This document shows, piece by piece, positions 3,684-36,261 of a stretch of DNA of 64,000 bases. Every line of letters starts with the position of its first letter. Position 1 is the first letter of the stretch. The stretch comes from SAR202 cluster bacterium bin87 (GTDB lineage: Bacteria; Chloroflexota; Dehalococcoidia; Lucifugimonadales; UBA3495). The translations under genes and the position numbers were made by a program. The DNA is taken from assembly GCA_002238825.1 (NCBI GenBank), contig MPNC01000007.1:62001-126000 (forward strand). Direction: 5' to 3'. The notes under the pieces were generated by a model. That model was not told the DNA's origin. It made no database searches and was given only the letters and a program-made list of their open reading frames with translations.

Positions 3684-4067
3684 ATGACCCCGGAACAGAA
3701 AGCCCACACACACATCGACTCTCTGCTGGAGCAGGCAGGGTGGGTGGTGCAGGATGCTTATTCGGTGAACCTGTCCGCCGGACGGGGCGTTGCGATCCGC
3801 GAATTCGGGCTGAAACCCGGCCATGGTACCGCTGATTATCCGCTGTACGTTGATGGCAAGGCGGCGGGCGTCATCGAGGCAAAGCCGGCCGGCCACACCC
3901 TCACGGGCGTGGAGACCCAATCGGGCAAGTACAGCGACGGTCTGCCGGACGCGCTGCCCGCGCACCGCAAACCGCTGCCCTTCCTGTACGAGACCACCGG
4001 ATCGGAAACGCGCTTCACCAACCTGATCGATCCGGAGCCACGCAGTCGCGGCGTGTTCGTCTCCTAG
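3684..4067 (+). pseudogene. N-terminal fragment of a second HsdR
   Basis: From ATG 3684 (MTPEQKAHTHIDSLLEQAGW) to the stop at 4067 the protein matches residues 1-129 of the full HsdR at 25483 almost residue for residue. It keeps the nuclease core GHGTADYPLYVDGK...IEAKPAG and ends RGVFVS where the intact gene goes on to FAFHTPDALADW. Sequence after 4067 no longer matches, so this is a truncated copy lacking the helicase and C-terminal domains. It could still be expressed as a 127-residue nuclease-domain peptide, but no clear ribosome binding site is visible. It lies about 1.2 kb after the first att copy; the intact HsdR lies 0.3 kb after the second. Confidence 0.85.
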
Positions 4068-7639: not shown

Positions 7640-7777
7640 CCCCACGCGTATCCAGTTTCACCGGAACCGTCATTGGGAGCGAAGCGCGGCAACCTCGTTG
7701 GGGCACGGAATACTACTGCGGGAACGAGATCGCCACGTCGCTTCGCTCCTCGCGATGACAAAATGGGTACGGGTGAA
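7640..7777. mobile_element. 138-bp MITE-like element with target duplication
   Basis: The ends are diverged copies of the CTCACGCGTACCCA terminus (left CCCACGCGTATCCA; right, reversed, TTCACCCGTACCCA). An 11-base direct repeat GTTCTGCACCC lies at 7631-7641 and 7778-7788, compatible with a 9-bp target duplication plus chance matches. The interior is the cattgggagcgaagcgcgg...cgcttcgctcctcgcgatgac hairpin found throughout the window. Confidence 0.75.
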
Positions 7778-7787
7778 GTTCTGCACC

Positions 7788-8308
7788 CGCTTGCGATTGG
7801 GCACGTGGGCGCAGAACAATCCATAGTGACCGCGTCTCCAGCGGACGCCTCCGCCTCCGGGATGGCGGCGACCTCGACGCCAGGCCGCCAACACACTGTC
7901 GACGCCTCTGACGCGCCCCTTCACCGTGACCTCCGAGGCGCTCTCCCCGGGCGTTCCGCTGTCGTTCGACGCTGCGGTTTCAGCATCATGCAGTTCCGCC
8001 TGATCTTGGAGCCGCCAACTATCGCCTCATTCTCCCCGTAATCGCTCTGGCCTGGGCACCGGAGTGGAACCTTTCGGATGGTACAGTTTGTCATCCTCAG
8101 GAATCTTGGGAGATCGCTCCGTCTTGGCAAGCCGCCCAATGGGATTAAAATCACCTCTGCCAATCAATTACGTTGATGTGTACCGATTTGACGAGTCCTC
8201 CTGATAGTCTGATCGCCAGCATTTTGACCAGTCACGATTGGTAACATTTACCCTCGTGTCCGCACGACATCTGAAGTATGTTTTCAGCGGGGACCCCGGC
8301 CGAATTGC
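7788..8308. other. Spacer, nothing recognised
   Basis: No convincing gene on either strand; only short out-of-frame reading frames. The segment from about 8170 is less GC-rich and is probably the upstream region of the histidine kinase gene. Confidence 0.4.
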
Positions 8309-9601
8309 GTGGTCGCCGGTGGGATGGTCCGATCCTCAAGACCAGACAGACGCAAGCAAGTGAATCAAGACGGGGACCCTGAGTTGCTGAAAGCAAGCAT
8401 GGCATCCGTACGGAATTGGGTAACGGCGGGGATCCCTGCCGACCCGGACGTGGTGCTGTTTGCCATCCGGATCTCGGTCTGGGGCCGCTGGTTCATCTGG
8501 CTAGTGGCCGTGTTTCTCACCTCTTACCGTCCGAGCTTCTGGTATCCCGAGCACCCCGAATACCTGGTCATTTCGATCGTCTTGCTCGTGGTCAACGGCG
8601 CCGCCCACCACCGGGTCCGGACCAGCAGACCCATCACGTGGCGGTGGCTGCTGTTCCTTAGCTTCATGGATGTGGCCCTGACCACCTACGGCGTTGCCAT
8701 CAACGGCGGATTTTCCAGCTTCATCTTCGTTGCCTACTATCCGGCGGTCGCCGTGGTTCCTGTGGTCTTCTCATCTCTCCGCCTCAGTCTGGCCTGGACG
8801 ACGATCACGGCGGCAATCTACATCTCCGTTTGCCTCGCGACGGGCTCAGTGGACTTCGCCGCCGGCAATGACCTCGCGCTGGTGTCGAGGGTCGCGGTGT
8901 TGTACATCCTGGTGGTGGGAATCGGACTGATAACCCGGTTCGAGCGCTTCAGGTGGCAACGTTCGGTGGCGAGGGAACGCCAGATGCGCCAGGACCGCAT
9001 CGAGGTGTCCCAGCGGATTCACGACACCATCGCTCAGACGGCGTACATGATCGGCCTGGGGATTCACCACGCCAGACAGCTGGCCAGCGACTCCAACGAC
9101 GAACTGGTTGCCGCCCTTGACGCCACTGCGGAGCTGACGAGGTCAGCCATGTGGGAGATGAGAGGTCCCATCGACGCCGGCCAGATCGTTGAAGGCAGAG
9201 AGCTGGGGCGTGTCCTGTGGTCGCACTGCGCCACGTTTCAGAGAATCACCTCGGTGCCGGCCGAGATGTCGCAGTCAGGGACCGAGCCCCCGCTTTCCGC
9301 AGAGACCCGGGACGGGCTGTTCTCCATTGCCCATAACGCCTTGACCAACGCCTTCCTGCACGCGCGTCCAGGTAAAGTCCAGGTGCGGCTGGCCTTTGAG
9401 GCGGACCGGATCACGCTGTCCATTTCGGATGACGGGGTGGGTCTTCCCGTGGACTATGCGGAAAGGGGTCGCGGCTTCAGTGGCATGGAGACAGACGTAC
9501 AGCGGATGGGAGGCATTCTCACCGTGGAGAGTTCCAAAGGGGGAGGCGAGACCATCATTACTTGTGTGGTGCCGCGTGAAGCCAATCAAGGAGGAGCCTG
9601 A
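8309..9601 (+). CDS. NarL-type sensor histidine kinase, membrane-bound
   Basis: A 430-codon sensor kinase. After a basic start it has about five membrane segments between residues 50 and 210 (for example WGRWFIWLVAVFLTS, YLVISIVLLVVNG, ALVSRVAVLYILVVGIGLIT). A HisKA_3 dimerisation box follows, with the phospho-accepting histidine in QRIHDTIAQTAYMIGLG (His238), and then a HATPase domain with N box AHNALTNAFLHARPG, G1 DDGVGLP and G2 GFSGMETD. There is no recognisable extracellular sensor domain, so the signal is probably sensed in or near the membrane. The start is uncertain: GTG 8309, ATG 8324 and ATG 8399 are possible and none has a strong ribosome binding site. It is followed at once by its response regulator. 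Confidence 0.85.
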   Translation: MVAGGMVRSSRPDRRKQVNQDGDPELLKASMASVRNWVTAGIPADPDVVLFAIRISVWGRWFIWLVAVFLTSYRPSFWYPEHPEYLVISIVLLVVNGAAHHRVRTSRPITWRWLLFLSFMDVALTTYGVAINGGFSSFIFVAYYPAVAVVPVVFSSLRLSLAWTTITAAIYISVCLATGSVDFAAGNDLALVSRVAVLYILVVGIGLITRFERFRWQRSVARERQMRQDRIEVSQRIHDTIAQTAYMIGLGIHHARQLASDSNDELVAALDATAELTRSAMWEMRGPIDAGQIVEGRELGRVLWSHCATFQRITSVPAEMSQSGTEPPLSAETRDGLFSIAHNALTNAFLHARPGKVQVRLAFEADRITLSISDDGVGLPVDYAERGRGFSGMETDVQRMGGILTVESSKGGGETIITCVVPREANQGGA

Positions 9602-9602
9602 G

Positions 9603-10280
9603 GTGTCGCAGACGGATTTGATCAGGTTGATGCTGGTGGACGACCATCCCATAGTGTTGAGCGGTTTGCGCAACGTCCTGGAAGCATCGGGCCGCTTCGA
9701 CGTGGTGGCCCAGGCTCTCGACGGCGCGGAGGCCGTCCGCATCGCCCTGGCCGTGAAACCGGAGGTGATCATAATGGACGTGGTCATGCCGGAGAAAGAC
9801 GGAATTGATGCCTGCCGGGACATCATGGAAGCCCTTCCCGACACTCGGGTCCTGGTGCTGACGGCGTCGACCGAGGATGATGCGGTCATCCAGGCGATCG
9901 CGGCCGGCGCCGCGGGATTTGTTCAGAAATATTCGCCTCCCGAGGACTTGTTCGAAGCTGTCCAGGCGGTGGCCGAAGGTCGATTGCAGGTTCCTGACCA
10001 GGCAGTCAGAAAGGTCTTCAGCATGCTCCGCCACGGTCAGATTTCCCAGCCCCGCCGGGCTCTGGACAGCCTCACGCAACTGGAGCAGGAGGTCCTGAAG
10101 CTGTTTGCCACCGGGCGGAGCTACTCCCAGATCGCCGAGGCCAGGAGCAACAGTCCAGTGACTATCCGGAATACCATTTACCGCATCCAGAGCAAGCTGG
10201 GCATAGTGACCAAACCGGAACTCGTCATCTGGGCAGTGCGGAGCGGGCTGCTGGACGACTCCGCGGCGGAGGCCGAGTGA
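9603..10280 (+). CDS. NarL/FixJ-family response regulator
   Basis: A 225-residue DNA-binding response regulator. The receiver domain shows LMLVDDHP (acidic pair at residues 13-14), phospho-acceptor Asp59 in IIMDVVMPEKDG, and the switch Lys in GFVQKYS. The C-terminal LuxR-type helix-turn-helix is at about residues 155-215 (LTQLEQEVLKLFATG...IAEARSNSPVTIRNTIYRI). The GTG start at 9603 lies one base after the kinase stop, preceded by AAGGAGGA at a good distance, so the two genes are coupled. Its targets are unknown; the nearest candidate genes are the giant surface proteins that follow, of which the first is convergent to it. Confidence 0.92.
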   Translation: MSQTDLIRLMLVDDHPIVLSGLRNVLEASGRFDVVAQALDGAEAVRIALAVKPEVIIMDVVMPEKDGIDACRDIMEALPDTRVLVLTASTEDDAVIQAIAAGAAGFVQKYSPPEDLFEAVQAVAEGRLQVPDQAVRKVFSMLRHGQISQPRRALDSLTQLEQEVLKLFATGRSYSQIAEARSNSPVTIRNTIYRIQSKLGIVTKPELVIWAVRSGLLDDSAAEAE

Positions 10281-10283
10281 AAG

Positions 10284-10318
10284 CGGGCTCATCCGTGCCG
10301 TCGCCCACGATGAGCCCG
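10284..10318 (+). terminator. Stem-loop after the response regulator
   Basis: CGGGCTCAT (10284-10292) and ATGAGCCCG (10310-10318) form a perfect 9-bp stem with a 17-base loop, three bases after the response regulator stop. There is no T run, so termination may be weak or Rho-assisted. Confidence 0.5.
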
Positions 10319-10453
10319 ATGTCTCCCGGGCAGTCCTGCGCCAGCGCCGCGTCCAATCGAACCCCTATCGTCCCCTCTGCGTCGCGAGCGGAAATGACCA
10401 TGCTGTCTGCCGTTCATCGACCCGGGCGCTTCCGGGCCCACCACCGGCCTCAA

Positions 10454-13400
10454 CTAATTCTCACGGCAGTAGAGGCCCGATAGTCTCGACCAGGTGCCCC
10501 AGATGTTGTCCTCCCGGGCGCGGATACGGATGGTTAACCCCGCTCGGCCGTCGACTGGGTTCATCGTCACGCTCCCATGCAGGTCGACGTATCCGCCGTC
10601 AGACACGAACCGATGGGTAACCCGTTCTATTCCTTCCTGCGGAGTGATGTGGGCCTGCCACTCGTCAATGTCCCCGTGGGACTTATCGTTGGGACCGCCC
10701 CAAATGACCAGGATAGGCAGCGTGGTGCGGCAGGAATCCAGCGTTAGGTGATTATGCCTTGCTTCGGGATGGTTCCGGGTGCCGGTGCGGTCCAACCAGT
10801 AAGACGACAGCGTCCCCACGTTCAACGATTCGGAGCCCTCGGGCCCGGGGGTGGATTGGGAATCGGTGGAACCCATAGGCGTGCCCCTGCCAGTGGTCCA
10901 GGCAACCCCCGTCCCCACCTGGTTCACCGACGCCACCGCCACCTCGTAGGTACTCCCGTTGCGCAACCCGCTGATCGTCTGCACCCGCAGGGACGGATTC
11001 GATCGGGACACGTTGGTCCACGATGATCCCCCCTCCGGTCGGTACCGCACCCGGTATCCGGTCACCGGGGCCCTTGGGTCCTCCTGCAGCGGCGGGTCCC
11101 ACTCCAATCCGAGGATGCCGTCGCCCGGATGCACCGTCAGTTCCGCGGGCGGAAGAGGCATCGACGCCGACCCTTCCGGCGTGGCGGTGTCGCGGGACGC
11201 CGGACCATCCAATGCTTCCCGCACCGCGCGCACCTCAAAGAGGTACGTCGTGTCGTTCACCAGGTTTCGCACCGTGTATGACGTCGTGGTCCACCGGCTG
11301 TTCGGTATCCTCGTCCAGTCTGGGTTCCACTCGGCCTCCGGCAGGTTAACCCGGTATCGATACTGGTACTGGGTGATGGAGTCGTCCACCGAAGCGTCCC
11401 AGCTCAGCATCGCCCGTCGGTCCTGGGAGGAAGTCGCAGCGAAGTTCGCCGGCGCGGCCAGGCGACCCCGGGGCTTCTGCATAACCCCACGCCCCGGGCC
11501 CCCGTCCGTGCCTCGCATGGCGCGCAACTCCACGGTGTAGAGCGCATTGTTGGTCAACCCGGACAGGATGTGTGACGTGGTGGTTGACCCGCTTCCCGTG
11601 AGGTTCGTCCAGTCCGGGTTCCAGTCACCGTCGGATGGGTTCCGGTAGCGGTACTGGTATCCGGTGATGGTGATGTCGTTGGGATCATCCCAGCTCAAAG
11701 CGATCTGGCCGTCGCCTGCCCAAGTTGCGTCAAGTCCGCGAGGCGCCCTCAGCTGTCCCCGCGGCACGGCCTGCACTTCGTCCTCGTTACCGGATTCGTC
11801 CCGGGCGTTCCTGGTGTACACCGGCCGGACCTGTAGGGTGTACTCGATGCCGTTGGTCAGGCTCCGGAGCCGGTACGACATGGTGTACGCATTGCTGCCC
11901 GGGATGTTCCGCCAGTTCGGGTTCCACCCGGTGTCCCCCGTGTTCCGGTACCGGTACTGGTACCTGGTCACCGTGTGGCTGGTGATCCGGTCCCATTCAA
12001 GAGTCACCTGACGGTTCCCCGGCGTGGCCCGGAAGTTGTGCAGATCCGAAGCGTGATCCACTGTCCGGTTGGTGAAGGAGGCCGCCTTCGCGCCGCTCAG
12101 GTCCTGGATCGGGTTCGTGATCGGCACCTGGTAGGACAACGTGACATTCTGGCCCCGCTCAACCGCTGCTCCAAGGGTCAGCTCCACCTCGGCGCCGCTG
12201 ATCGAAACCCCAATAGGGTTGGCGCCGCTTCCGCCGCCCACATTTACGGTGAAAGCGCTGTTGGACGGCGCTGTGGCGTTCAGAGGCTCGCTGTAGGTCA
12301 ACGTCAGGATCTGGCCGGCCACCTCGGCCTTCTCCAGCATGGGCTTCAGCGTGTCGACCTTGTGGTCCGAAAGTGGTTCCCGGGCGCCGTGGATCAGTAG
12401 GGCGGCTACCTGCTGGCCCGGGTCCGCGTGCGCGAACCTGATGGCGCCGCCGTTCAGGCGCAGCGAGTTTGCGCCCCACGATATGCCATCGTAGTCGTCG
12501 CCGTCCCCGGACTGCACCGCGTACGTGAAGACCAGCCTTTTCGAATTGGAGCCCCGGGAATAAGCCGCCAGGCGGGTCTGGCCACCCAGCTCAAATTCAA
12601 ACTGAGGCGCGCCGGTCACCGACACCGCTCCGTTGAACTCCACCATGAATAGAATGCCGTCGCCGGCTTTGTAGTATCCGTTAACCGGCGCCGGGGTCGC
12701 CTCAATCTGCGACACCCTCAGCGTGTCGTTGTCCCGGATTGTCACCGTTGCCCGGTTCGCGCCTTGCGGCGGCATCGCGACGGCATAACTGGTTCCTGGC
12801 GAATGGCCGAAATATACGTCGAAGGTTTCGTCGCCCTCATACTCCTGATCGTCGATCGTCTGGACCTGGTACCTGGAGGTTTGCGTGTAGGTGTCATTGC
12901 CCAGGTCAGTCCAACCCTGGGCGGGAAACGAGACATCCCGGTTGATGTGGGTGTAGTCAACGCCGGTCGTGGCTGTTCCGTCCGCGGTCAGGGCCGAAGC
13001 GCGGACAGGGTCACGGGGCCTCGCCACTCCGGCGCCGGTTCTGGCGACCATGCCGGCATCCAGGACAGATCCCTCCTCAACGGTCAAGCCCGTGGACTGC
13101 TGATGGGATACTTGTGCAGTGGGGCCCGTGGTCGGCACCTTCACCTGCACCGTGGCCGAGTTGCGGGGCGCCAGCATTGGAACTTGGGTGTAATCTCCCA
13201 ATACGGTGACCGTCAGGTCTCCGCTGGTGTTGCCACGATAGTTGCTGTTCAAAAAGTGGTCCGCCGATGCTTGATCTCCAGAGAAGAAAAATTCGACGAC
13301 GGTTTGTGGGGAGTAAGTGTCGCTTTGGGTTATCCTGACCGGCACCAAGAGAATATCGGAGTTTGCGATGGAGCGCGTCAACCGGTACCTCGCGCGGGCA

Positions 13401-24322: not shown

Positions 24323-25064
24323 ATGGAACCCACGCCCCATTGGCGTATCCGGTTATCAGGGGCCTGCAAGTACGCGATGCGAAAGGAGAAACTCGACCGC
24401 AACGTGGCTGCCCTCGTCGCGTTGCCGCCCGTCACCAAGCGCGAGGTGATCCCCCGGAGATCGACACCGTCCAGCAAATGCTCTCCCTGGCCGAGTCCGA
24501 GAACCATCCCCTTTATCCGTTCCTGCTCGTTCTGACCTACACCGGGATGCGACAGGGATAACTGCGGGGCCTCACGTGACGCCGCGTGGACCTGGCGGTC
24601 GTGTTGATTAACGTGGTGGAAGGCACGGTCAGGACGCAAGAACGCGGCAACGTGAAGTACCTCTCCAAGACCGACAAGGGGGCCGCGAAATTGACCTGCC
24701 AGATGTGGCGGTACATTTCCTGCGCAACCATCTGGTTAGCCAGGGTGAAGGGGTCAAACCCGATGATCTGATCTTCCCTGGCCCCGACGGGGACATGATT
24801 CCCGAGACCACCATGATGCGGCAGCTGAAAGAACTGGGGGCTCGCGTCGGAGTCCCTGAAGTCAACTTCCACGCCTTCCGGCATTTTCACGCCAGCGTGT
24901 GCCTCGAGGATTACCAGAACGCGTTCGCGACGTCCCGTCGGCTCGGGCATGGCAGCATCAAGACCACCATCGACACGTATGGCCATCTGCTGAAGGGGAG
25001 GCAGAAATATCTGGCCCAGTCTTTCGCGAAAACCCTGGAACACACCGACGAATCCCGGCCCTGA
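24323..25064 (+). pseudogene. Tyrosine recombinase (integrase), broken
   Basis: Pieces in different frames form a phage-type integrase. The end of the core-binding domain is YAMRKEKLDRNVAALVALPP (from about 24373). The start of the catalytic domain is IDTVQQMLSLAESENHPLYP then TYTGMRQG, broken by TAA at 24559 and TGA shortly after. RVDLAVVLINVVEGTVRT follows, and then in another frame VAVHFLRNHLVSQGEGVKPD, HAFRHFHASVCLE (HxxR), LGHGSIKTTIDTYGHLLKG (catalytic Tyr) and a normal C-terminus at 25064. At least two frameshifts and two stops make it inactive. Its position about 110 bases before the second tRNA-Ser 3' copy is the usual place for an integrase next to its att site. Confidence 0.85.
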
Positions 25065-25482: not shown

Positions 25483-28293
25483 ATGACCCCGGAACAGCAA
25501 GCCCGCGAACAAATCGACCGCCTGCTCGAGCAGGCGGGGTGGGCTGTGCAGGATGTTCACTCGCTCAACCTCTCTGCCGCGCGGGGCGTGGCGATTCGCG
25601 AATTCGGGCTGAAACCCGGCCACGGCACCGCTGACTATCTGCTGTACGTTGATGGTAAGGCGGCCGGCGTCGTCGAGGCAAAGCCGGCCGGGCATACCCT
25701 CACCGGCGTGGAGACCCAATCGGGCAAGTACAGCGACGGTCTGCCGGACACGCTGCCGGCGCACCGCAAACCCCTGCCCTTCCTCTACGAAACGTCCGGA
25801 TCCGAAACGCGGTTCACCAACCTGATCGATCCGGAACCGCGCAGTCGCGGCGTCTTCGCCTTCCATACCCCCGACGCCCTGGCCGATTGGGTTGGCTCAA
25901 ATGCGACGACCGCGCTGGCGAGCCATGCCGGCGTGGCGGAGCCGGGCGCGGTCTACGCCGTGGCGCGGAACCTCCGCCAGCGTCTCACCGAAATGCCGTC
26001 GCTGGATGCCGGGGCGCTCTGGCCGGTGCAGGAGCGCGCCATCCTGAACTTGGAGGAATCGCTGGCGCTGGCGAAGCCCCGGGCGTTGATCCAGATGGCC
26101 ACCGGCAGCGGCAAGACCTTCACCGCTTGCAACCTGGTGTATCGCCTCATCAAGCACGCGGGAGCGAAGCGGGTGCTGTTCCTGGTAGACCGCAACAACC
26201 TGGGACGCCAGACCCTGCGGGAGTTCCAGGGGTTCACAACTCCCGAGGAGCGCCGGAAGTTCGCCGAGTTGTACAACGTCCAGCTGTTGCAGTCCGGCCA
26301 TATCGACCCGGTGAGCCGGGTGTGCATCTCCACCATCCAGCGGGTGTATTCCATGCTGCGAGGCGAAGAGCTCGAACCGGAGAAGGATGAACTCTCCGGC
26401 ATCGACTTCGCCCAGGTCAACCCGCAGCCGGGCGCAGTGGAGTACAACCCCGACATCCCCATCGACAGCTTTGACTTCATCATCACGGACGAGTGCCACC
26501 GCTCCATCTACAACCTGTGGCGGCAGGTGCTGGAGTACTTCGATGCCTTCCTCATCGGCCTGACCGCGACCCCTTCGGCCCAGACCTTCGGTTTCTTCCA
26601 GCAGAACCTGGTGATGGAGTATACGCACGAGGAAGCGGTCGCCGATGGCGTAAACGTCGACTCGGATATCTACCGCATCCGCACGCAGATCACAGAGGAG
26701 GGAGCCAGCGTCAAAGCCGGTCAGCATATCGACCGGCGCAACCGCAGGGCCAAGACCACGCGGTGGGCGGAAGAGCTGGACGACGATCTCACCTACACCG
26801 CCGGCCAACTGGACCGGGATGTGGTGGCGGAGGACCAGATCCGCACCGTCATCCGCGCCTTCCGTGACAATCTGTTCACCGACATCTTCCCCGGGCGCAC
26901 CGAGGTGCCCAAGACCATCATCTTCGCCAAGGACGACAGCCACGCCGACGACATCGTGGACATCGTGCGCACGGAGTTCGGCAAGGGCAACGACTTCTGC
27001 CAGAAGATTACGTACCGCACCACCGGGGCGCCACCGGAACAACTCATCGCCGCGTTCCGCAACAGCTACCATCCGCGCATCGTGGTAACGGTGGACATGA
27101 TCGCCACCGGCACCGACATCAAGCCCGTTGAGATCGTGTTCTTCATGCGCAACGTGCAGAGCCGCAACTTCTTCGAGCAGATGAAGGGCCGCGGCGTGCG
27201 TGTGATCTCGCCCACGGATTTCAACGCGGTCACCCCCGACGCACCCAACAAAGACCGCTTCGTCATCATCGACGCGGTGGGCGTTACCGAGTCGGAACTG
27301 TCAGACTCCTATTCGCTGGAGCGCGAACCCACCAAGACCTTCGGGCAACTCCTGGACCTGATCGCCAAGGGCAGCCGCGAGCCGGACCACCTGTCATCGC
27401 TGGCGAGCCGGCTGGCCCGGCTGTCCCACAAGATATCGCCGGCGGAACGGGAATCGATAGAAACTGCGGCGGAAGGCGTCCCGCTGCAAAGCCTCATCAC
27501 CAGCCTGGTGCGGGCCACTGATCCCGACGCCGCGCTGGAAGTGGCCCGGGAATCCACCGGTCTGGACGAGCCACCGCCCGAGGCCATCGCCGAGGCGGAG
27601 AAGCAGTTGCGCGAGGAAGCCGCCGCGCCATTGGCATACAACACCGAGTTGCGCCAGCGGCTGGAAACCATCCACCAGTCTCACGAGCAGACCATTGATA
27701 CGGTGAGCAAGGACGTGGTGCTGGACGCCGGATTCACCGACGACGCGGCCCAGGAAGCCGTGCAGTCCTTCCGGCAGTTCATCGAGGCGAACCGCGACGA
27801 GATCACCGCGTTGCAGGTGCTGTACGAGCGGCCCTACCGGCAGCGGCTGCGTCTGGACGACATCCGCGCGCTGGCCGACGCGATGCAGGCGCCGCCCCGG
27901 TCGTGGACCACCGAGCGATTGTGGCAGGCGTACCAGCGGCTGGACGAGTCCAGGGTGCGCGGCTCCGGCCAGCGGCAACTGGCGGACATCGTCGCGTTGG
28001 TGCGCTACGCCACCGGCGAGGCCGTCGAACTGGCTCCCTTCGCCGACCACGTGAACCGCCGGTTTGCCGGCTGGTTGGCCTTGCAGGAAACGGTCGGGCG
28101 GGTGTTCACCGACGAGCAACGCTGGTGGCTGGAGGCCATCCGCGACCGCATCGCCGGCAACGTGAGCGCGGAGATGCAAGACCTGCAGGACTCGCCGCTG
28201 GACCAACACGGCGGCCTGATCGCAGCCTATGACCTGTTCGGCGACGAGTTGCAGCCGATCATCGACGAGCTGAACCTGGAGTTGGTGCGTTAG
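25483..28293 (+). CDS. hsdR: Type I restriction enzyme, R subunit (HsdR)
   Basis: HsdR is the motor and nuclease of a type I restriction complex: with HsdM and HsdS it translocates unmodified DNA and cuts it at a distance. The 936-residue protein begins MTPEQQAREQIDRLLEQAGW. The PD-(D/E)xK nuclease is seen as GHGTADYLLYVDGK (Asp51) and VVEAKPAG (Glu65, Lys67). The superfamily 2 helicase has Walker A MATGSGKT at 205-212, DECH at about 336-339, LIGLTATPSAQ, and motif VI region FFEQMKGRGVR. The C-terminal third is the EcoEI-type R C-terminal domain. Length is typical and no defect is seen. The start matches the truncated copy at 3684. No strong ribosome binding site. hsdS and hsdM lie 1.7 and 4 kb downstream on the same strand, separated by toxin-antitoxin genes. 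Confidence 0.95.
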   Translation: MTPEQQAREQIDRLLEQAGWAVQDVHSLNLSAARGVAIREFGLKPGHGTADYLLYVDGKAAGVVEAKPAGHTLTGVETQSGKYSDGLPDTLPAHRKPLPFLYETSGSETRFTNLIDPEPRSRGVFAFHTPDALADWVGSNATTALASHAGVAEPGAVYAVARNLRQRLTEMPSLDAGALWPVQERAILNLEESLALAKPRALIQMATGSGKTFTACNLVYRLIKHAGAKRVLFLVDRNNLGRQTLREFQGFTTPEERRKFAELYNVQLLQSGHIDPVSRVCISTIQRVYSMLRGEELEPEKDELSGIDFAQVNPQPGAVEYNPDIPIDSFDFIITDECHRSIYNLWRQVLEYFDAFLIGLTATPSAQTFGFFQQNLVMEYTHEEAVADGVNVDSDIYRIRTQITEEGASVKAGQHIDRRNRRAKTTRWAEELDDDLTYTAGQLDRDVVAEDQIRTVIRAFRDNLFTDIFPGRTEVPKTIIFAKDDSHADDIVDIVRTEFGKGNDFCQKITYRTTGAPPEQLIAAFRNSYHPRIVVTVDMIATGTDIKPVEIVFFMRNVQSRNFFEQMKGRGVRVISPTDFNAVTPDAPNKDRFVIIDAVGVTESELSDSYSLEREPTKTFGQLLDLIAKGSREPDHLSSLASRLARLSHKISPAERESIETAAEGVPLQSLITSLVRATDPDAALEVARESTGLDEPPPEAIAEAEKQLREEAAAPLAYNTELRQRLETIHQSHEQTIDTVSKDVVLDAGFTDDAAQEAVQSFRQFIEANRDEITALQVLYERPYRQRLRLDDIRALADAMQAPPRSWTTERLWQAYQRLDESRVRGSGQRQLADIVALVRYATGEAVELAPFADHVNRRFAGWLALQETVGRVFTDEQRWWLEAIRDRIAGNVSAEMQDLQDSPLDQHGGLIAAYDLFGDELQPIIDELNLELVR

Positions 28294-28309
28294 GCGGCCA
28301 ACCGTCTGC

Positions 28310-28498
28310 CTCACGCGTACCCATTTTGTCTTTTACATCGATGGACAGGATGGGCAGGATGATGGCGATACCGTCGCCGCATTCTGCTCACAGCGGCGGC
28401 CCTGATGCCGGGACACACAATGATCAACCAAATCCTGTCCATCCTGTGCATCGATGTAAAACCACCCCTATCGCCGTTTAAAAGTGGGTACGCGTGAG
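28310..28498. mobile_element. 189-bp MITE with 14-bp inverted ends and 9-bp target duplication
   Basis: The ends CTCACGCGTACCCA (28310-28323) and TGGGTACGCGTGAG (28485-28498) are perfect inverted repeats. The element is flanked exactly by the direct repeat ACCGTCTGC (28301-28309 and 28499-28507). The interior holds a second imperfect inverted repeat (ttttacatcgatggacagg ... tgtgcatcgatgtaaaa) and no coding sequence. Only the termini match the elements at 6309 and 7640; the interior is different. It lies 16 bases after the hsdR stop. Confidence 0.9.
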
Positions 28499-28604
28499 AC
28501 CGTCTGCGACTTGTTTCAAAGGCCCGTCTATCTTGACGTTCTAGGACCGTTATCGCAGAATGGATCTATACTGGTGCGGTATAGACCGTTATGGAGTTAA
28601 AGCC

Positions 28605-28832
28605 ATGGTTGCGGCAAAAGAGAGGTTCTCCGCTCAAGTTGAGACGGGGTTGATAGAGGCCGTGCGAGAAGAAGCGCAAACTCGGGGTTGCGACTTTGAG
28701 ACCGTGGTGGAAGAGGCTATTCGATTTTATTTCGAAGCCAAAACGGAAGGCCGCTCGCGACCCGAAGTAATGGCCCACTATCGCGACAGCGTCGAGAGAC
28801 ATCGACGCCTGTACGAACTGCTGGCGCAATGA
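28605..28832 (+). CDS. Antitoxin of a Doc-type toxin, RHH-like
   Basis: A 75-residue protein (MVAAKERFSAQVETGLIEAV then REEAQTRGCDFETVVEEAIR). The N-terminal half has the strand-helix-helix pattern of ribbon-helix-helix antitoxins and the charged C-terminal half would bind the toxin. Its stop overlaps the start of the Doc gene by 4 bases (ATGA), the classic antitoxin-toxin arrangement. Start at 28605 is chosen for the GGAG eight bases upstream; an ATG at 28560 is in frame but has no ribosome binding site. Such antitoxins usually repress their own promoter. Confidence 0.75.
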   Translation: MVAAKERFSAQVETGLIEAVREEAQTRGCDFETVVEEAIRFYFEAKTEGRSRPEVMAHYRDSVERHRRLYELLAQ

Positions 28833-29215
28833 CCCGCGACTTCCCAATCATCCGGGAAGTCTTGGACATACACGACGACCAGATTCTCCGGTTTGGCGGT
28901 GAACCGGGGCTTCGTGATCCCGGCGCGCTAGATTCGGCCATCATGCGCCCGCAAATTGGGTATTACGCCGGCATCATCGAAGAAGCCGCCGCCCTCCTGG
29001 AAAGCCTGGCAATGAACCACCCGTTTGTCGACGGCAACAAGCGGGTGGCTTTTGCTACCACAGAGGTTTTTCTGCGGATGAATGGTTATTTCATCGATTG
29101 CGACAGCCTCGAGGCGCACCGGCACTTCATGCACCTGTTCGATACCAACTCCTTCCGATTTGCGGAGTTGGTCGCGTGGCTGTCAGGTAACGTCAAGCCA
29201 CTGCCGTCTGCGTGA
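28829..29215 (+). CDS. doc: Doc-family toxin (Fic fold)
   Basis: A 128-residue Doc/death-on-curing toxin. Doc proteins phosphorylate elongation factor Tu and stop translation. The conserved motif HPFVDGNKRVAFATTEVFLR is complete (catalytic His, and the GNKR that holds the phosphate). The N-terminus IREVLDIHDDQILRFGGEPG, with LRDPGALDSAI, is also typical of the family. It follows its antitoxin with a 4-base overlap. No defect is seen, so it is likely active if expressed. Confidence 0.92.
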   Translation: MTRDFPIIREVLDIHDDQILRFGGEPGLRDPGALDSAIMRPQIGYYAGIIEEAAALLESLAMNHPFVDGNKRVAFATTEVFLRMNGYFIDCDSLEAHRHFMHLFDTNSFRFAELVAWLSGNVKPLPSA

Positions 29216-29234
29216 GCGTTTCGCTGGGCATCCG

Positions 29235-29465
29235 ATGAAATACGTGGCTCTAATCGCCAAAACCGGCACCGGCTATTCGGCCTACCTGCCGGACCTGCCC
29301 GGTTGCGTCGCTGCCGCCGACACCTTTGAGGAAACCCGGGAGCTGATCCGGGAGGCGGCCAATTACCATGTCGAAATAATGGCCGAGCATGGCGAAACTA
29401 TCCCCGAACCGGTGTACATAGCCGCAGAGGTGGAAGTACCCGCCCCGGCGCCCGCTGCGTCGTAG
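29235..29465 (+). CDS. Orphan HicB-like antitoxin
   Basis: A 76-residue HicB-type protein: MKYVALIAKTGTGYSAYLPD then LPGCVAAADTFEETRELIRE, with PEP...EVPAPAPAAS at the end. It is the short form (partial RNase-H-like fold) without a separate DNA-binding tail. It begins 19 bases after the doc stop and has no HicA directly before it. It is very similar in protein and DNA to the HicB at 29739, including the last 40 bases, so it is probably a duplicate whose own toxin was lost. It could neutralise the nearby HicA or a HicA elsewhere. Confidence 0.8.
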   Translation: MKYVALIAKTGTGYSAYLPDLPGCVAAADTFEETRELIREAANYHVEIMAEHGETIPEPVYIAAEVEVPAPAPAAS

Positions 29466-29535
29466 CCGGCCGAAGCGCCTCAAGCGATTCACCTAGTTGG
29501 ACCGCAGATTACTTCCATGTTGAGCGGGTTATGCC

Positions 29536-29742
29536 ATGCCGCCCAGAGTCCGTGAAGCGATCCGCATAATCGAACGGGACGGCTGGTTTCATGCGAGGAC
29601 ACCGGGCAACCATCGCCAATATCATCATCCGGAGAAGCCGGGAACGGTGACCATTTCCGGCAACCTCGGAGCTGAACTGGATACACGGAAGTGGTACAGC
29701 ATTTTGCAACAGGCGGGAATGGACAGGAGAGATTACCGTTGA
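29536..29742 (+). CDS. hicA: HicA-type mRNA interferase toxin
   Basis: A 68-residue HicA toxin: MPPRVREAIRIIERDGWFHA, then GNHRQYHHPEKPGTVTISGN and WYSILQQAGM. The conserved catalytic His follows the usual Gly-(Ser/Asn) pair (GNHRQ) in the double-stranded-RNA-binding-like fold. HicA cleaves mRNA and is bound by HicB. Its stop overlaps the following hicB start by 4 bases. Apparently intact. Confidence 0.9.
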   Translation: MPPRVREAIRIIERDGWFHARTPGNHRQYHHPEKPGTVTISGNLGAELDTRKWYSILQQAGMDRRDYR

Positions 29743-29969
29743 AATACGTAGCCATAATCGGCAAGACCGGCAACGGCTATGCGGCGGACTTGCCGGATTT
29801 ACCCGGTTGCATCGCCGCCGGAAGCACCCTCGAAGAAACATGGCAGTTGATCCAGGAGGCTGCCAACTACCATGTCGAGCTTATGGCTGAGCACGGCGAG
29901 ACCATCCCCGAACCGCTAAACGTGGCCGTGGAAGTGGAAGTGCCCGCTCCGGCGCCCGCTGCGTCGTGA
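29739..29969 (+). CDS. hicB: HicB-type antitoxin
   Basis: A 76-residue partner of the HicA just before it, with a probable TTG start at 29739 overlapping the hicA stop and a strong CAGGAGAG ribosome binding site 8-10 bases before. Sequence LKYVAIIGKTGNGYAADLPD, LPGCIAAGSTLEETWQLIQE and the same PAPAPAAS tail as the orphan HicB upstream. Translational coupling would match antitoxin to toxin output. It ends 24 bases before hsdS. Confidence 0.88.
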   Translation: MKYVAIIGKTGNGYAADLPDLPGCIAAGSTLEETWQLIQEAANYHVELMAEHGETIPEPLNVAVEVEVPAPAPAAS

Positions 29970-29993
29970 CTCGCGGTCGTTGAGAGCGGGCGA

Positions 29994-31541
29994 ATGACGG
30001 ATAATTTTCAACAACTAGATCTACCGTCAGGGTGGTGTAGAACCATCCTAGGGCAAGTAATTTCAGTCATACGTGGGGTCTCATACAAGAAGCAGGATGC
30101 TGGTTTCGAAGCCACGGCTGGCGTGGTACCGATCCTACGCGCTACGAACATCCGCGATAGGCTCGCTTTCGAAGATCTCGTGTATGTTCCCGATCACTAC
30201 GTCAAACGAGAACAGTACCTGATACCTGGCGATATCGTGATCGCGGCTTCTAGCGGTAGTAGATCCGTCGTTGGCAAGGCCGCGCAACTCAGCACAGATT
30301 GGGTAGGTTCGTTTGGCGCATTTTGCTTAGCGCTGAGACCCCACGATTCTTTTACCAACGGGTATTTGGCCTGGTTCCTCCAGTCGCAAGAATACAGGAG
30401 CAGGGTGTCCAGACTCGCTGCAGGCGTGAACATCAATAACCTCCGGCGGGAGCATATCGAGGAAACGCCAGTTTTGGTCCCGCCACTCCTCGAGCAGCGG
30501 CGCATCGTTGCGGAGATTGAGAAGCAGTTCACGCGGCTGGATGCGTCGGTGGCGGCGCTGCGGCGGACGCAGGCGAACCTGAAACGCTACCGGGCCAGCG
30601 TCCTGCGGGCCGCCTGCTCCGGCGAGTTGGTGTCCACCGAGGCCGAACTGGCCCGCGCCGAGGGCCGGGAGTACGAGCCGGCCGATGTCCTGCTGGAGCG
30701 CATCCTGGCGGAGCGTCGGGCGCGCTGGGAGTCCCAGGAGAAACGGCGGGGCAAGTACAAAGAGCCGGCCGCGCCCGATACGTCCGACCTGCCGCCGCTG
30801 CCGGAGGGGTGGGCGTGGGCGACGGTTGACGCTCTCATCAGCGAACCCCTTGCAAACGGTAGGTCGGTCAAAACGGCATCAGATGGTTTCCCAGTGTTGC
30901 GCCTAACGGCTTTGCAGGATGGGCAAATCAACCAGAGTGAGTTCAAAGTCGGTGCATGGACCGAGCACGAAGCCGAACCGTTTTTCATCCGGGAAGGCGA
31001 TTTCTTTGTTTCTCGCGGCAATGGGTCGATAAAGCTGGTAGGGCTGGGAGGAATCGTCGGACCCGTACATGAGCCGGTCGCATATCCTGATACTTTGATC
31101 CGATTTCGATTGCATCCCGAGGTTTCGCTGAGTTACTTCGCCCACGTGTGGAACTCGGCGACCGTTCGCCAGCAATTGGAAACTGTCGCGAGAACCACCG
31201 CAGGCATCCATAAGGTCAATCAGCAAGACTTGTCCATATGCAAGATCCCCCTCCCACCCCTCGCCGAGCAGCGCCGCATCGTGGCCGAGGTGGAGCGGCG
31301 GCTGTCGGTCGTACAGCAGGCGGAGGCGGCGGTGGAGGCCAGTTTGCAACGGGCCGAGCGGCTGCGCCAGAGCATCCTCAAGCGAGCCTTCTCTGGCGAA
31401 CTGGCACCCCAGGACCCGGACGACGAACCGGCGTCGGTACTGCTGGAACGCATCCGCGCCCAGCGCGAGGCGGAGCAGGCGGCGGCGACCGCGAGCGAGA
31501 AGCGACCGGCGCGCCGGCGGCGGTCGAAAGCCACAGGTTGA
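29994..31541 (+). CDS. hsdS: Type I restriction-modification specificity subunit (HsdS)
   Basis: HsdS recognises the bipartite DNA target for both methylation and cleavage. The 515-residue protein has two target recognition domains (about residues 10-165 and 275-420), each followed by the repeated spacer PPLLEQRRIVAEIEKQFTRL / PPLAEQRRIVAEVERRLSVV and the helical block LKRYRASVLRAACSGEL / LRQSILKRAFSGELAPQ. The recognition domains are visibly less GC-rich than the conserved spacers, as expected from domain exchange between strains. The gene ends with a basic tail. It follows HicB by 24 bases. Confidence 0.95.
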   Translation: MTDNFQQLDLPSGWCRTILGQVISVIRGVSYKKQDAGFEATAGVVPILRATNIRDRLAFEDLVYVPDHYVKREQYLIPGDIVIAASSGSRSVVGKAAQLSTDWVGSFGAFCLALRPHDSFTNGYLAWFLQSQEYRSRVSRLAAGVNINNLRREHIEETPVLVPPLLEQRRIVAEIEKQFTRLDASVAALRRTQANLKRYRASVLRAACSGELVSTEAELARAEGREYEPADVLLERILAERRARWESQEKRRGKYKEPAAPDTSDLPPLPEGWAWATVDALISEPLANGRSVKTASDGFPVLRLTALQDGQINQSEFKVGAWTEHEAEPFFIREGDFFVSRGNGSIKLVGLGGIVGPVHEPVAYPDTLIRFRLHPEVSLSYFAHVWNSATVRQQLETVARTTAGIHKVNQQDLSICKIPLPPLAEQRRIVAEVERRLSVVQQAEAAVEASLQRAERLRQSILKRAFSGELAPQDPDDEPASVLLERIRAQREAEQAAATASEKRPARRRRSKATG

Positions 31542-31577
31542 TTTGTGGCATACTGCCCGGCAAGGACGGTGAGTGAA

Positions 31578-32270
31578 ATGGTTGCCAAGTCCACGGTGAA
31601 TGCGCCGGTACCGGCCTCCGACGAGGTCCGCCTTGCGATGGACCCGATTTTCCTGCCCATCTGCCTGGAGTTCGGGCCGGTCCTGGAAGCATTGGTCGAG
31701 GCCGGGTACACCGGGGAGCGGTTTGACGAATGGCTGGTGCAATTCAATCAAGCCAATCGGAACCGGGTGGGCAAGCTGGAACTGACCTCCGAGGGAGTGT
31801 TGCTGGTATCGCCTATGCAGAGCAAAGAGGGTTCACTGTCGGAAGGGATCGTCTTCGGGGAACTGTACATCTGGACTCGGGAGGGCGGAGGAGGCGAAGC
31901 CCACCCCTCGCGGCTGGGCGTCCATCTGCCCAATGGAGCGCGCTACGCTCCTGACGCGGCATGGCTGTCCCCGGAGCAACTGGCCGACTATTCGCCTTCG
32001 GAAAACACCTGGCTGCCGCACTTCTGTCCTTGTTTCGTGGTCGAGGTAATGTCGCGCAACGACCGGCCGGCGGAGGCGCAACGCAAGATGGACGACTACA
32101 TCGCCCACGGCGCGCGGTTGGGCTGGCTCATTGATCCCTTCCGGCGGCAGGTGCATATCTACCGCCCCGGCGCTGCGCCTTTGACGCTGGATGACCCGCC
32201 GGTAGTGAGCGGCAACCCGGAACTCCCGGGGTTTGTCTTCAATGTTCGCGCCCTGATTTTCGACGCCTGA
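31578..32270 (+). CDS. Uma2-family (DUF820) putative endonuclease
   Basis: A 230-residue Uma2/DUF820 protein of the PD-(D/E)xK superfamily. The core is seen in GARYAPDAAWLSPEQL (metal-binding Asp), FVVEVMSRNDRPAEAQ (E-x-V/M-S in place of the usual ExxS/K), KMDDYIAHGARLGWLIDP and QVHIYRPG. The function of this family is unsettled. It lies between hsdS and hsdM in the same direction with short gaps (36 and 42 bases), so it is probably transcribed with them. ATG 31578 is preferred over the upstream GTG 31545. A second, shorter Uma2 is at 57004. Confidence 0.8.
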   Translation: MVAKSTVNAPVPASDEVRLAMDPIFLPICLEFGPVLEALVEAGYTGERFDEWLVQFNQANRNRVGKLELTSEGVLLVSPMQSKEGSLSEGIVFGELYIWTREGGGGEAHPSRLGVHLPNGARYAPDAAWLSPEQLADYSPSENTWLPHFCPCFVVEVMSRNDRPAEAQRKMDDYIAHGARLGWLIDPFRRQVHIYRPGAAPLTLDDPPVVSGNPELPGFVFNVRALIFDA

Positions 32271-32312
32271 CCCCTCCGCTCGTCCTGAGCCTGTCGAAGG
32301 ACAGTTCCGTTT

Positions 32313-33782
32313 ATGACCACCGCAACCACCATCGGGCAGAAGCTGTGGAACTACTGCGACGTGCTGCGCAACGCCGGCCTGTCCTATGGCGATTACCTGG
32401 AGCAGCTCACCTACCTCATCTTCCTCAAGATGATGCACGAACTCACCCAGCCGCCGCTGTCGCTCCTCTCCGACCGCCATCCGCCGCCCATTCCCGTGGG
32501 TTGCGACTGGCCCAGCCTGATGGCGCGGGACGGCTCGGAGCTGGACGTCCACTATCGCCACATCCTGGAAACCCTGTCTCACCAGCCGGGCACGCTGGGG
32601 GTGATTTTCGGCAAGGCGCAGAGCCGCATCCAGGAACCGGCCATGCTGACCCGGCTGGTCAAGGAACTCATTGACAGCGAGAACTGGCACGGCCTCAGCG
32701 CCGACGTGAAGGGCGACGCCTACGAGTCGCTGCTGGAGCGCAACGCCCAGGACGTGAAGACCGGCGCCGGCCAGTACTTCACGCCGCGTCCGCTGATCCA
32801 GGCCATCGTGGACGTGATGCGGCCCGGGCCGGACACCACCATCTGCGATCCCGCCTGCGGCACCGGCGGGTTCCTGCTGGTCGCCCACGAGTACGTCCAT
32901 CGGCACAACCCGACCATGAACCGGGAGCAGTCGGAATTTCTGCGCAACGACGCGCTGCACGGGTGGGAGATCGTGGACAGCGCGGCGCGCCTCGGCGTGA
33001 TGAACCTGTACCTCCACGGCATCGGCGGCGACCAAAGCAACATCAGAGTGGACGACAGCCTGCGCGCGCAACCCAGCGACCACTATGACATGGTGCTGAC
33101 CAACCCGCCCTTCGGCCGCACGTCCACGCTGACCTTCGTCAACGAGGAGGGCCGGACCGAGCGGCAGAGCCTGACGGTGGAGCGACCCGACTTCTGGGCC
33201 ACTACCAGCAACCGGCAGCTGAGCTTCCTGCAGCACGTCCGCACGCTGCTTAAAACCAACGGCAGCGCGGCCATCGTGCTGCCCGACAACGTGCTGTTCG
33301 AGGGCGCCGCCGGCGAGAACGTCCGCCGCCGGCTGCTCCACGAGTGCGACGCGCACACCCTGCTGCGGCTGCCCACCGGCGTGTTCTACGCCCAGGGGGT
33401 CAAGGCCAACGTGCTGTTCTTCGACCGCAGGCCGGCCAGCGAGACCCCGTGGACGCGGGAGCTGTGGATCTACGACCTGCGCACCAACCAGCGCTTCACG
33501 CTGAAGACCAACCCGCTGACCCGGGCGCACCTGGACGACTTCGTGTCCTGCTACCGCGCCGACGACCGGGCGCAGCGGGAGGAGTCCGAGCGATTCCGCC
33601 GCTTCACCTACGACGAGCTGACGCAGCGGGACAAGGCCAACCTGGACATCTTCTGGCTCCGCGACGAGAGCCTGGAGGACTCCGAAAACCTGCCGCCGCC
33701 CGACGTCATCGCCGAGGAGATCATGGAGGACCTGCGCGCCGCGCTGGAACAACTGGAGGAAATCGCCGCGGATCTGGGGTAA
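32313..33782 (+). CDS. hsdM: Type I restriction-modification N6-adenine methylase (HsdM)
   Basis: HsdM methylates adenines in the HsdS target. The 489-residue protein has the HsdM N-terminal helical domain (GQKLWNYCDVLRNAGLSYGD, YLEQLTYLIFLKMM), QYFTPRPLIQAIVDVM, SAM-binding motif I DPACGTGGFLL and the catalytic motif NPPFG (Asn264). The C-terminus ends in an acidic helix. Length is normal. Last gene of the restriction block; a tandem repeat array begins at its stop codon. A fragment of this gene recurs at 36180-36261. Confidence 0.95.
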   Translation: MTTATTIGQKLWNYCDVLRNAGLSYGDYLEQLTYLIFLKMMHELTQPPLSLLSDRHPPPIPVGCDWPSLMARDGSELDVHYRHILETLSHQPGTLGVIFGKAQSRIQEPAMLTRLVKELIDSENWHGLSADVKGDAYESLLERNAQDVKTGAGQYFTPRPLIQAIVDVMRPGPDTTICDPACGTGGFLLVAHEYVHRHNPTMNREQSEFLRNDALHGWEIVDSAARLGVMNLYLHGIGGDQSNIRVDDSLRAQPSDHYDMVLTNPPFGRTSTLTFVNEEGRTERQSLTVERPDFWATTSNRQLSFLQHVRTLLKTNGSAAIVLPDNVLFEGAAGENVRRRLLHECDAHTLLRLPTGVFYAQGVKANVLFFDRRPASETPWTRELWIYDLRTNQRFTLKTNPLTRAHLDDFVSCYRADDRAQREESERFRRFTYDELTQRDKANLDIFWLRDESLEDSENLPPPDVIAEEIMEDLRAALEQLEEIAADLG

Positions 33783-34095
33783 CTGTTCAGAGATGCTGGG
33801 GGGTGTCATGGCGAGCGCAGCGCGGCAATCTAGTTGGCGTAACTGTTCAGAGTTGCGGGGAAAGTGTCATTGCGAGCGCAGCGCGGCAATCCCGTTGGCG
33901 CAAGGGAGTCCTTCGAGACAAGCGTGGCTGCTACGGCGTCGAGATTGCCACGGCGCAAGCGCCTAGCAATGACAAAGGGGAGGTGTCATTGCGAGCGCAG
34001 CGCGGCAATCCCGTTGGAGCGTGGAGTCCTTCAGGGCAGACGTTGCTGCTACGATATCGAGACTGCCACGGCGCAAGCGCCTCGCAATGACAAAA
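33781..34095. repeat. Tandem array of REP-type hairpin repeats
   Basis: Two 60-bp direct repeats start AACTGTTCAGAG (33781 and 33841). They lead into two direct repeats of about 115 bp (about 33867-33981 and 33985-34095), each starting GTGTCATTGCGAGCGCAGCG and ending with its inverted counterpart ggcgcaagcgcc..caatgac. No gene lies between hsdM and the nucleotidase at 34208; the rest (34096-34207) is plain spacer. Confidence 0.85.
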
Positions 34096-36179: not shown

Positions 36180-36261
36180 CCGACCATGAACCGGGAGCAG
36201 TCGGAATTTCTGCGCAACGCCGCGCTGCACGGGTGGGAGACCATTGACAGCGCGGCGCGTG
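36180..36261 (+). pseudogene. Isolated 82-bp fragment of hsdM
   Basis: This segment matches hsdM around 32920-33001 at all but a few positions and would encode MNREQSEFLRNAALHGWETI. It sits alone between two minus-strand genes, in the upstream region of the nucleotidase gene. It may be a scar of a second hsdM copy or of gene conversion. Confidence 0.85.

Follow-up and report, generated by a model that had tools for sequence, protein, structure and literature searches.

Additional defense genes have been described inside type I restriction-modification (R-M) operons of several bacteria. In the RRDM island of enteropathogenic E. coli, the toxin-antitoxin (TA) system DarTG2 lies between hsdS and hsdR in the company of a repressor, RptR, and its authors regard the site as a potential recombination hotspot (PMC12255303). 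Similarly, GmrSD-like TgvAB genes form part of the Vibrio VPI-2 type I operon, and in Campylobacter jejuni RloF sits between hsdR and hsdS (PMC11411939). Here, we analyze a type I locus from the SAR202 cluster bacterium bin87, carried by a stretch of 64,000 nucleotides that we call the window (contig MPNC01000007.1, positions 62,001 to 126,000). The genome is a SAR202 bin of the sponge Aplysina aerophoba, and R-M and TA genes are enriched in sponge symbionts (PMC5649159). The junction between hsdR and hsdS of this locus is filled with TA genes and, on the sequences compared, it looks like a maintained and exchangeable slot for TA cassettes rather than the site of a one-off insertion, because relatives carry different TA pairs at the same spot.

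The TA cassettes at this junction are a variant on the precedents set by DarTG2, TgvAB, and RloF. As in the RRDM island, the type I operon has a complete TA pair between its hsdS and hsdR genes, accompanied by a small gene for a repressor or DNA-binding protein. However, the RRDM island has one TA family, belongs to the Gammaproteobacteria, and follows the order M-S-[TA]-R, whereas here HicAB, ribbon-helix-helix (RHH)-Doc, and ParE-type pairs alternate and stack in a single clade, most of it Chloroflexota, with the order R-[TA]-S-M, and the RHH gene lies inside the slot. The slot genes belong to families other than DarTG2; no search aimed at RptR was made. TgvAB and RloF are likewise extra defense genes in a type I operon, RloF at the very junction of hsdR and hsdS, but they are type IV restriction-like genes that form no TA pairs. 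A translation-blocking toxin gene also lies inside the hsd operon of EcoprrI, where the toxin, PrrC, is held by the Hsd complex (PMC3874165, PMC12707154); by contrast, the toxins studied here adjoin antitoxin candidates. Toxins in R-M loci and their repeated replacement are also features of the immunity-suicide coupling hypothesis, under which immunity loci appear not to encode typical antitoxins (PMC3506569), unlike the locus described here. Lastly, HicA-HicB pairs are part of the described HicAB/RHH antitoxin networks (PMC2701414), although the RHH protein is here encoded by a separate gene upstream of hicAB or doc. Open-access titles and the beginnings of abstracts gave no description of HicAB, Doc, or ParE cassettes at the hsdR/hsdS junction, although one may exist elsewhere; the available portions of PMC5537629 and PMC3874152 hold nothing on TA cassettes at this position.

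In overlapping samples, each with the bin87 genome among its members, hsdM relatives at E 1e-100 were found in 12 of 294 class-level, 25 of 400 phylum-level, and 12 of 250 order-level genomes. A scan of genome contigs returned 13 loci, and 10 of 50 family genomes contain hsdR relatives. Fourteen loci, including the window, are of the same kind (hsdM at least 73% or hsdR at least 68% identical; some are cut by contig ends), and these were compared with 24 more distant loci that have all three hsd genes. Two of the latter (L044 and L104) have the order R-M-S and stay outside the gap tally, which leaves 22. Also excluded from the gap counts are L105, L107, L112, and L115 (no hsdR found), L181 and L182 (contig ends inside hsdR), L010 (hsdM match of only 23%), other loci without hsdR, hsdS, or hsdM, and ten duplicate records. 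In an hsdR tree of 37 rows, the 13 rows of the clade fall on one side of a branch with support of 100/100 (L108, a short piece, was kept out), and the clade loci are drawn from several Chloroflexota families.

With lengths measured to the earliest in-frame start of hsdS, the hsdR|hsdS gap spans roughly 0.6–2.8 kb in all 12 clade loci that have both genes, and none is empty. Specifically, it measures 700–2834 nt in 10 loci, approximately 0.7 kb in L108, and approximately 0.64 kb in L045, where hsdS is split and a frame at 7782 looks like its start. For the two other loci, no hsdS was found in L178 and the contig of L179 ends in the gap. By contrast, a gap of 3 nt or less, overlaps included, is possible in 20 of the 22 distant R-S-M loci, and 13 of them have an overlap of exactly 4 nt. 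The exceptions are L092 (173 nt) and L039 (1225 nt, with DUF6978 and DUF1828/1829 genes), and a cruder gap measure still gives 59 nt or less in 18 of 22. As such, the wide gap is nearly specific to this hsdR clade among the loci examined, and it looks derived.

An open toxin gene, encoding Doc, HicA, and/or a ParE-like protein, is found in the gap of 12 of the 14 clade loci, and its kind varies. In the window, the gap reads RHH-doc, hicB, hicA-hicB. Three loci begin with RHH and continue with hicA-hicB: L009 holds this pair only, L177 adds a 66-aa protein, a HicB-like piece, and hicB, and L114 has the pair twice, followed by the 66-aa protein and ParE. RHH-doc heads the gap in L106, where hicB and the 66-aa protein with a ParE-like toxin follow, and in L178, where it precedes an OLD-like nuclease gene and transposase-looking frames. 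Other arrangements include an aspartyl-protease-like gene, hicB, the 66-aa protein with ParE, hicB, a hicA segment, and hicB (L109); hicA-hicB and a weak aspartyl-protease match (L081); the 66-aa protein with ParE (L111); and a 134-aa protein followed by HicA (L108, L110, and L179). The two loci that remain carry a C-terminal fragment of Doc and an AbiJ/Abi_C-like gene (L025) or a 210-aa gene with no Pfam match (L045). Among 54 candidate ORFs outside the window, Pfam identifies 9 HicA, 10 HicB-like, 4 ParE_like, and 2 Fic members. The 66-aa and 134-aa proteins are taken for antitoxin candidates by their position; by eye and by comparison, the latter resembles the 66-aa protein of L106 fused to a HicB-like part, and the two are separate frames in L177. 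Next to the hsd locus of L110, an oriented stretch (7697-10852) contains a frame of 1051 aa, presumably with a Cas9-like N-terminus.

The initial annotation had proposed that recurrence of the full order hsdR, doc, hicAB, hsdS, uma2, hsdM in other genomes would support a functional unit. Conservation of the full order is rejected, as no other examined locus has doc, hicAB, and uma2 together, and what recurs is the presence of toxin genes of varying kinds in the same gap. The order is thus unique among these loci, one half of what would have spoken against a functional unit; the other half, that toxins be absent from otherwise identical loci, was not found.

Because the window was picked for its content, L009 alone is taken as an independent test. 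This locus, on contig 54 of the same genome (67 contigs, 4.96 Mb; 4,958,136 nt), is the only other close hsd locus of bin87. It reads hsdR, RHH, hicA, hicB, hsdS, hsdM, with RHH-hicA-hicB in the same position as the TA genes of the window, and is devoid of doc, uma2, and a second hicB. Its hsdM is 92% identical to that of the window, while the two HsdS proteins share 50% identity overall with conserved blocks, as expected if they differ in target. The genome has 11 HicA matches (10 above cut-off) and 8 Fic matches, so random insertion, with about 0.002 HicA matches expected in the 818-nt gap of L009 (11 x 818 / 4,958,136), is rejected.

The distribution of HicB leads in the same direction. In 50 family genomes, the window HicB has 26 matches, 11 of which lie in hsd loci, including 9 of the 10 with at least 66% identity. 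The exception, L180, is an RHH-hicA-hicB module flanked by metabolic genes, and none of the remaining 14 adjoins an hsdR match (wider neighborhoods were read for L183 and L184 only). A quick tree of 32 HicB sequences places 12 hsd copies and only 2 others on one branch (SH-aLRT 96), most other branches being weak. This HicB type thus appears nearly confined to hsd loci. As a control, Pfam was run on 97 of 103 flank ORFs from 11 loci: HicA, HicB, Fic, and ParE_like each have fewer than two members, and AAA_21 (AbiEii-type ATPase) has three, with one-member families not all listed. Pairwise dN/dS is low in TA genes (doc 0.09–0.13, hicA 0.07–0.19, hicB 0.10–0.23, RHH 0.15–0.23 with one pair saturated, and 0.13 between the orphan hicB and its L177 copy), in the range of hsdR (0.13–0.16; hsdM 0.17–0.22), although several dS values exceed 1 and make the ratio unsure there.

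All nine genes of the window locus (Table 1) are open, uninterrupted frames on the forward strand, and the gene families (confirmed by Pfam for all but the gene upstream of doc) and the shared direction reported by the initial annotation hold. HsdR carries motor and nuclease motifs (ATGSGKT as Walker-A, DECH, and D...EAK), HsdM carries those of an N6-adenine methyltransferase (DPACGTG and NPPF), and HsdS has a target-recognition domain, i.e. the features of a type I system by sequence. The three TA units first reported resolve into two complete pairs, RHH-doc and hicA-hicB, whose genes overlap by 4 nt in each case, plus an orphan hicB that duplicates the second one (80% identity over 232 nt). 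A complete TA pair therefore stands at the hsdR/hsdS junction. Doc satisfies the Fic-type motif HxFx[D/E]GNxR, and in the second pair a HicA-family toxin adjoins a HicB-family antitoxin. The gene upstream of doc is not a Phd-type antitoxin; it has no Pfam match, and its homologue is RHH-like. PADLOC calls the R-M subunits and gives only weak matches of Doc and Uma2 to uncharacterized PDC models, and Rfam finds two tRNAs and nothing else in the window.

Table 1. Features of the type I R-M locus in the window (positions count from the first letter of the window)
Feature	Position	Strand	Evidence or remark
hsdR, type I restriction subunit, 936 aa	25483..28293	+	EcoEI_R_C 1.4e-36, ResIII 9.4e-36, HSDR_N 5.4e-6 (Pfam)
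MITE-like element, 30-bp inverted repeat, 93% complementary	28331..28461		Inside repeat ~28307-28502, between hsdR and RHH gene
Predicted sigma-70-like promoter, TTGACG-17-CAGAAT	28533..28561	+	Consensus scan, hsdR-RHH gap
RHH antitoxin/repressor candidate, 75 aa	28605..28832	+	RHH_1 match of homologue, alignment, model
doc toxin (Fic/Doc), 128 aa, overlaps RHH gene by 4 nt	28829..29215	+	Fic 3.5e-15 (Pfam), DOC_P1 above cut-off, solved Doc 8.2e-11, HPFVDGNKR
Orphan hicB, 76 aa, duplicate of second hicB	29235..29465	+	HicB_lk 5.8e-13 (Pfam)
hicA toxin, 68 aa	29536..29742	+	HicA_toxin 1.3e-12 (Pfam)
hicB antitoxin, 76 aa, TTG start, overlaps hicA by 4 nt	29739..29969	+	HicB_lk 4.3e-13 (Pfam)
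hsdS specificity subunit, 515 aa, 24 nt after hicB end	29994..31541	+	Methylase_S 1.5e-13 (Pfam), PADLOC Specificity_I 3.6e-122
uma2-family putative nuclease, hsdS/hsdM slot	31578..32270	+	Uma2 7.2e-29 (Pfam)
hsdM methyltransferase, 489 aa	32313..33782	+	N6_Mtase 6.8e-65 (Pfam), PADLOC MTase_I 7.2e-188

Around the locus, the C-terminal part of a phage-type integrase lies just upstream of hsdR (24705-25064), and the stretch before it has stops in that frame. Directly after hsdM (33797-34020), a 44-nt repeat occurs in three imperfect copies, and the hsdS-hsdM sequence of L106 is similar by eye. An 80-bp hsdM fragment with 95% identity lies downstream of the locus (36180-36259). An N-terminal hsdR fragment (3684-4067) with 87–89% protein identity to hsdR of the locus is a remnant of another hsd locus.

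The RHH assignment was made through homologues. For example, the L009 homologue, 48% identical, matches RHH_1 at 6e-5. A model built from seven homologues has an unsure N-terminus, helices at 14–27, 31–46, and 53–74, and a mean pLDDT of 73, and a PDB search with the alignment returns RHH/CopG proteins as weak matches only (E 0.065–0.18). The window HicB (76 aa) aligns solely to residues 3–59 of a solved HicB3 of 143 aa and is without the fused DNA-binding domain that is common, though not obligatory, among HicB proteins. A HicB domain by itself probably does not bind DNA, and some are fused to RHH or Xre domains (PMC2701414). Since HicB is here the toxin-binding domain only, the RHH protein is probably the repressor that supplies DNA binding.

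A predicted sigma-70-like site behind hsdR fits such a role. An equivalent site with 9 of 12 matches is present in 6 of 6 RHH-headed loci (window, L009, L106, L177, L178, and L114), compared with 53 of 5000 random 90-mers of the same loci, and a stricter promoter pattern in 5 of 6 (L106 misses) compared with 11 of 5000; given the relatedness of the six loci and a window stretch of more than 90 nt, this excess is support and no proof. The freestanding module L180 also has a site ahead of its RHH gene (TTGACC-17-AATAAT, read from the sequence), so the site seems to belong to the RHH cassette and to travel with it. Ahead of hsdR, the scan found no 9/12 site, and an 8/12 site in 5 of 11 loci. The spacing between hicB and hsdS (24 nt in the window and 23 nt in L009) leaves little room for another promoter, and in L110 hicA overlaps hsdS by 4 nt.

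The initial annotation had listed the miniature inverted-repeat transposable element (MITE) and Uma2 in an arrangement that it considered a possible compound defense module; of the two, the MITE is incidental and Uma2 is part of another slot. The former is a short noncoding element with terminal inverted repeats and many copies: the repeat that holds it has 50 matches at approximately 31 places of the genome, itself included, mostly of one arm only, and about seven other copies span at least ~130 nt with 68–90% identity. It is not present in the five relatives compared (L009, L106, L177, L178, and L114), whose hsdR-RHH gap is 68–80 nt long, against 311 nt in the window, and we reject it as an element of the operon. 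Uma2 occupies a separate slot, as the hsdS|hsdM gap of relatives and plasmids carries other genes, and its membership in the TA array is likewise rejected. Specifically, this gap holds an NYN gene on the reverse strand in L105, PIN genes in L043 and L039, a weak PIN match in L098, an AAA/AbiEii-type ATPase gene in L100, and unknown genes in others (17 of 58 listed ORFs were scanned, plus L105). Elsewhere in the window (57250-57552), a second, distant Uma2-like match has 30% identity over 105 residues. In the same slot of L045 (9297-9888), genes for DUF4160 and DUF2442 proteins adjoin.

An hsdR match occurs in 20 plasmid records; of the 6 examined, 4 have hsdS and a methyltransferase (MTase) gene. 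On the Streptomyces, Gemmobacter, and Rhodococcus plasmids, hsdS overlaps hsdR or starts 95 nt after it, and GIY-YIG, DUF262, or HIRAN/hypothetical genes lie ahead of the MTase gene. The Pusillibacter plasmid has two hypothetical genes in each gap, and no annotated hsdS or hsdM was seen nearby on the Methylomonas and Thioclava plasmids, for which the gene table is incomplete. Hits to hicB-like genes occur near hsd genes in L093 and L095. To judge from the loci examined, the hsdS|hsdM gap takes up cargo in general, and what sets this clade apart is the presence of TA genes in the hsdR|hsdS gap.

We propose that, in one hsdR-hsdS-hsdM clade, the junction of hsdR and hsdS turned into a site where type II TA cassettes are retained and swapped, each of which would function as a normal TA pair. 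In the families concerned, Doc proteins modify a translation factor, HicA toxins cleave RNA, and toxins of the ParE/RelE type hit gyrase or mRNA. The RHH protein would repress the site behind hsdR, from where TA genes, hsdS, and hsdM would be transcribed together. As antitoxin supply would depend on this unit, its deletion, replacement, or transcription shut-off, which phages impose on their hosts, would free the toxin. The cassettes would make loss or shut-off of the operon costly and tie cell survival to its presence and expression. We give about even probability to the view that the cassettes are mainly addiction modules for the R-M genes and secondarily a generic abortive layer, with no sensing of restriction itself. 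In this sense, both roles that the initial annotation had offered for the toxin units, stabilization of the locus and a second layer of defense, survive.

Several observations weigh against the addiction reading. The 14 loci were picked after a first view of the relatives' loci, and hence not blindly, and they are related and provide no independent cases. TA and hsd genes do not always share their fate: RHH-doc persists in L178, where hsdM is broken and no hsdS was found; TA genes likewise persist beside a broken or split hsdM in L114 and L111; L025 retains its hsd genes but no more than a fragment of doc; and the wide gap of L045 has no recognized TA gene. Neither the 66-aa partner of ParE nor the 134-aa partner of HicA in L108, L110, and L179 has a Pfam match. 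TA genes also occur near hsd genes outside the slot. On the opposite strand, L037 and L094 have doc-like matches immediately past hsdM, and L024 has RHH-doc approximately 9 kb past it (10661-11181; same genus, no hsdR on that stretch); on plasmids, RelE/ParE pairs lie ahead of hsdR in Rhodococcus and approximately 1 kb after it in Methylomonas. As for transcription, the window region has 2 sigma-70-like sites compared with a shuffled mean of 1.8, seven of the other eight clade loci, including L108, L110, and L179, are without a 9/12 site (L109 has one, in a 1-kb stretch), and weak terminator-like sites are found inside doc and before hsdM (10 on both strands compared with 6.4 in shuffles). Finally, much the same picture would arise at a tolerated insertion site if selection acted on nothing but the TA genes.

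The main rival builds on this last point and is possible, if somewhat unlikely. It holds that the junction is a neutral hotspot that tolerates insertions, and that mobile TA cassettes reside there as selfish elements selected for themselves. The content does turn over between close relatives, the TA genes outlast broken hsd genes in the three loci just named (L178, L114, and L111), and the G+C of TA genes is 0.57–0.60, compared with 0.61–0.67 in hsd genes and 62.8% in the window. In addition, RHH-hicA-hicB stands alone in L180, and other cargo occupies the hsdR|hsdS site in other bacteria. However, neutral insertion does not readily explain why TA filling is limited to one hsdR clade among the loci examined, why the gap is occupied in all 12 clade loci that could be measured, or why these genomes have the HicB type almost nowhere else. 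Orientation also argues against it, as all 48 TA-related matches inside the gaps (25.8 kb) run in operon direction and none lies on the reverse strand; a single match was found in 226.6 kb outside, a contrast that is biased because the queries came from the gaps.

A further possibility, which we consider doubtful, starts from a presumed ancestral operon with a 4-nt hsdR/hsdS overlap. An inserted TA promoter under RHH repression may have split this operon, such that hsdS and hsdM answer to antitoxin level and hsdR does not; stress or phage that destroys the antitoxin would then raise modification and free the toxin together. If true, self-protection, dormancy, and restriction would be joined in one switch with an exchangeable toxin part.

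C proteins time the expression of type II R-M genes, and in a related but simpler scheme the RHH-repressed TA promoter would time hsdS-hsdM expression, with the toxin as a side load. The site behind hsdR in all RHH-headed loci, the lack of a DNA-binding part in HicB with RHH as the likely repressor, and the control of a type I operon by the small repressor RptR (PMC12255303) are consistent with this control role. Nevertheless, we find it quite improbable, given that seven clade loci, among them L108, L110, and L179, have no such site, that the similar site of L180 outside hsd loci assigns it to the cassette, and that no shared RHH operator emerged when the loci were compared. Least probable is that the toxins are held by the Hsd complex, or sense it, and are unleashed by inhibition of restriction, in the manner of PrrC, which has a comparable position in the hsd operon of EcoprrI and is freed by phage inhibition (PMC3874165, PMC12707154): PrrC is one toxin family without an antitoxin of its own, whereas here an antitoxin candidate adjoins each toxin, unrelated toxin families replace one another, and the decay of TA genes is uncoupled from that of hsd genes (L178, L114, L111, and L025), which leaves unsupported the part of the initial annotation in which the toxins fire once restriction is defeated.

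This locus bears on whether TA genes in defense loci act as partners, passengers, or locks. Several unrelated TA cassettes share a single junction of one hsd backbone, and its outgroup has overlapping flanking genes; for this reason, the addiction, guard, control, and passenger readings would be separable by cassette swapping.

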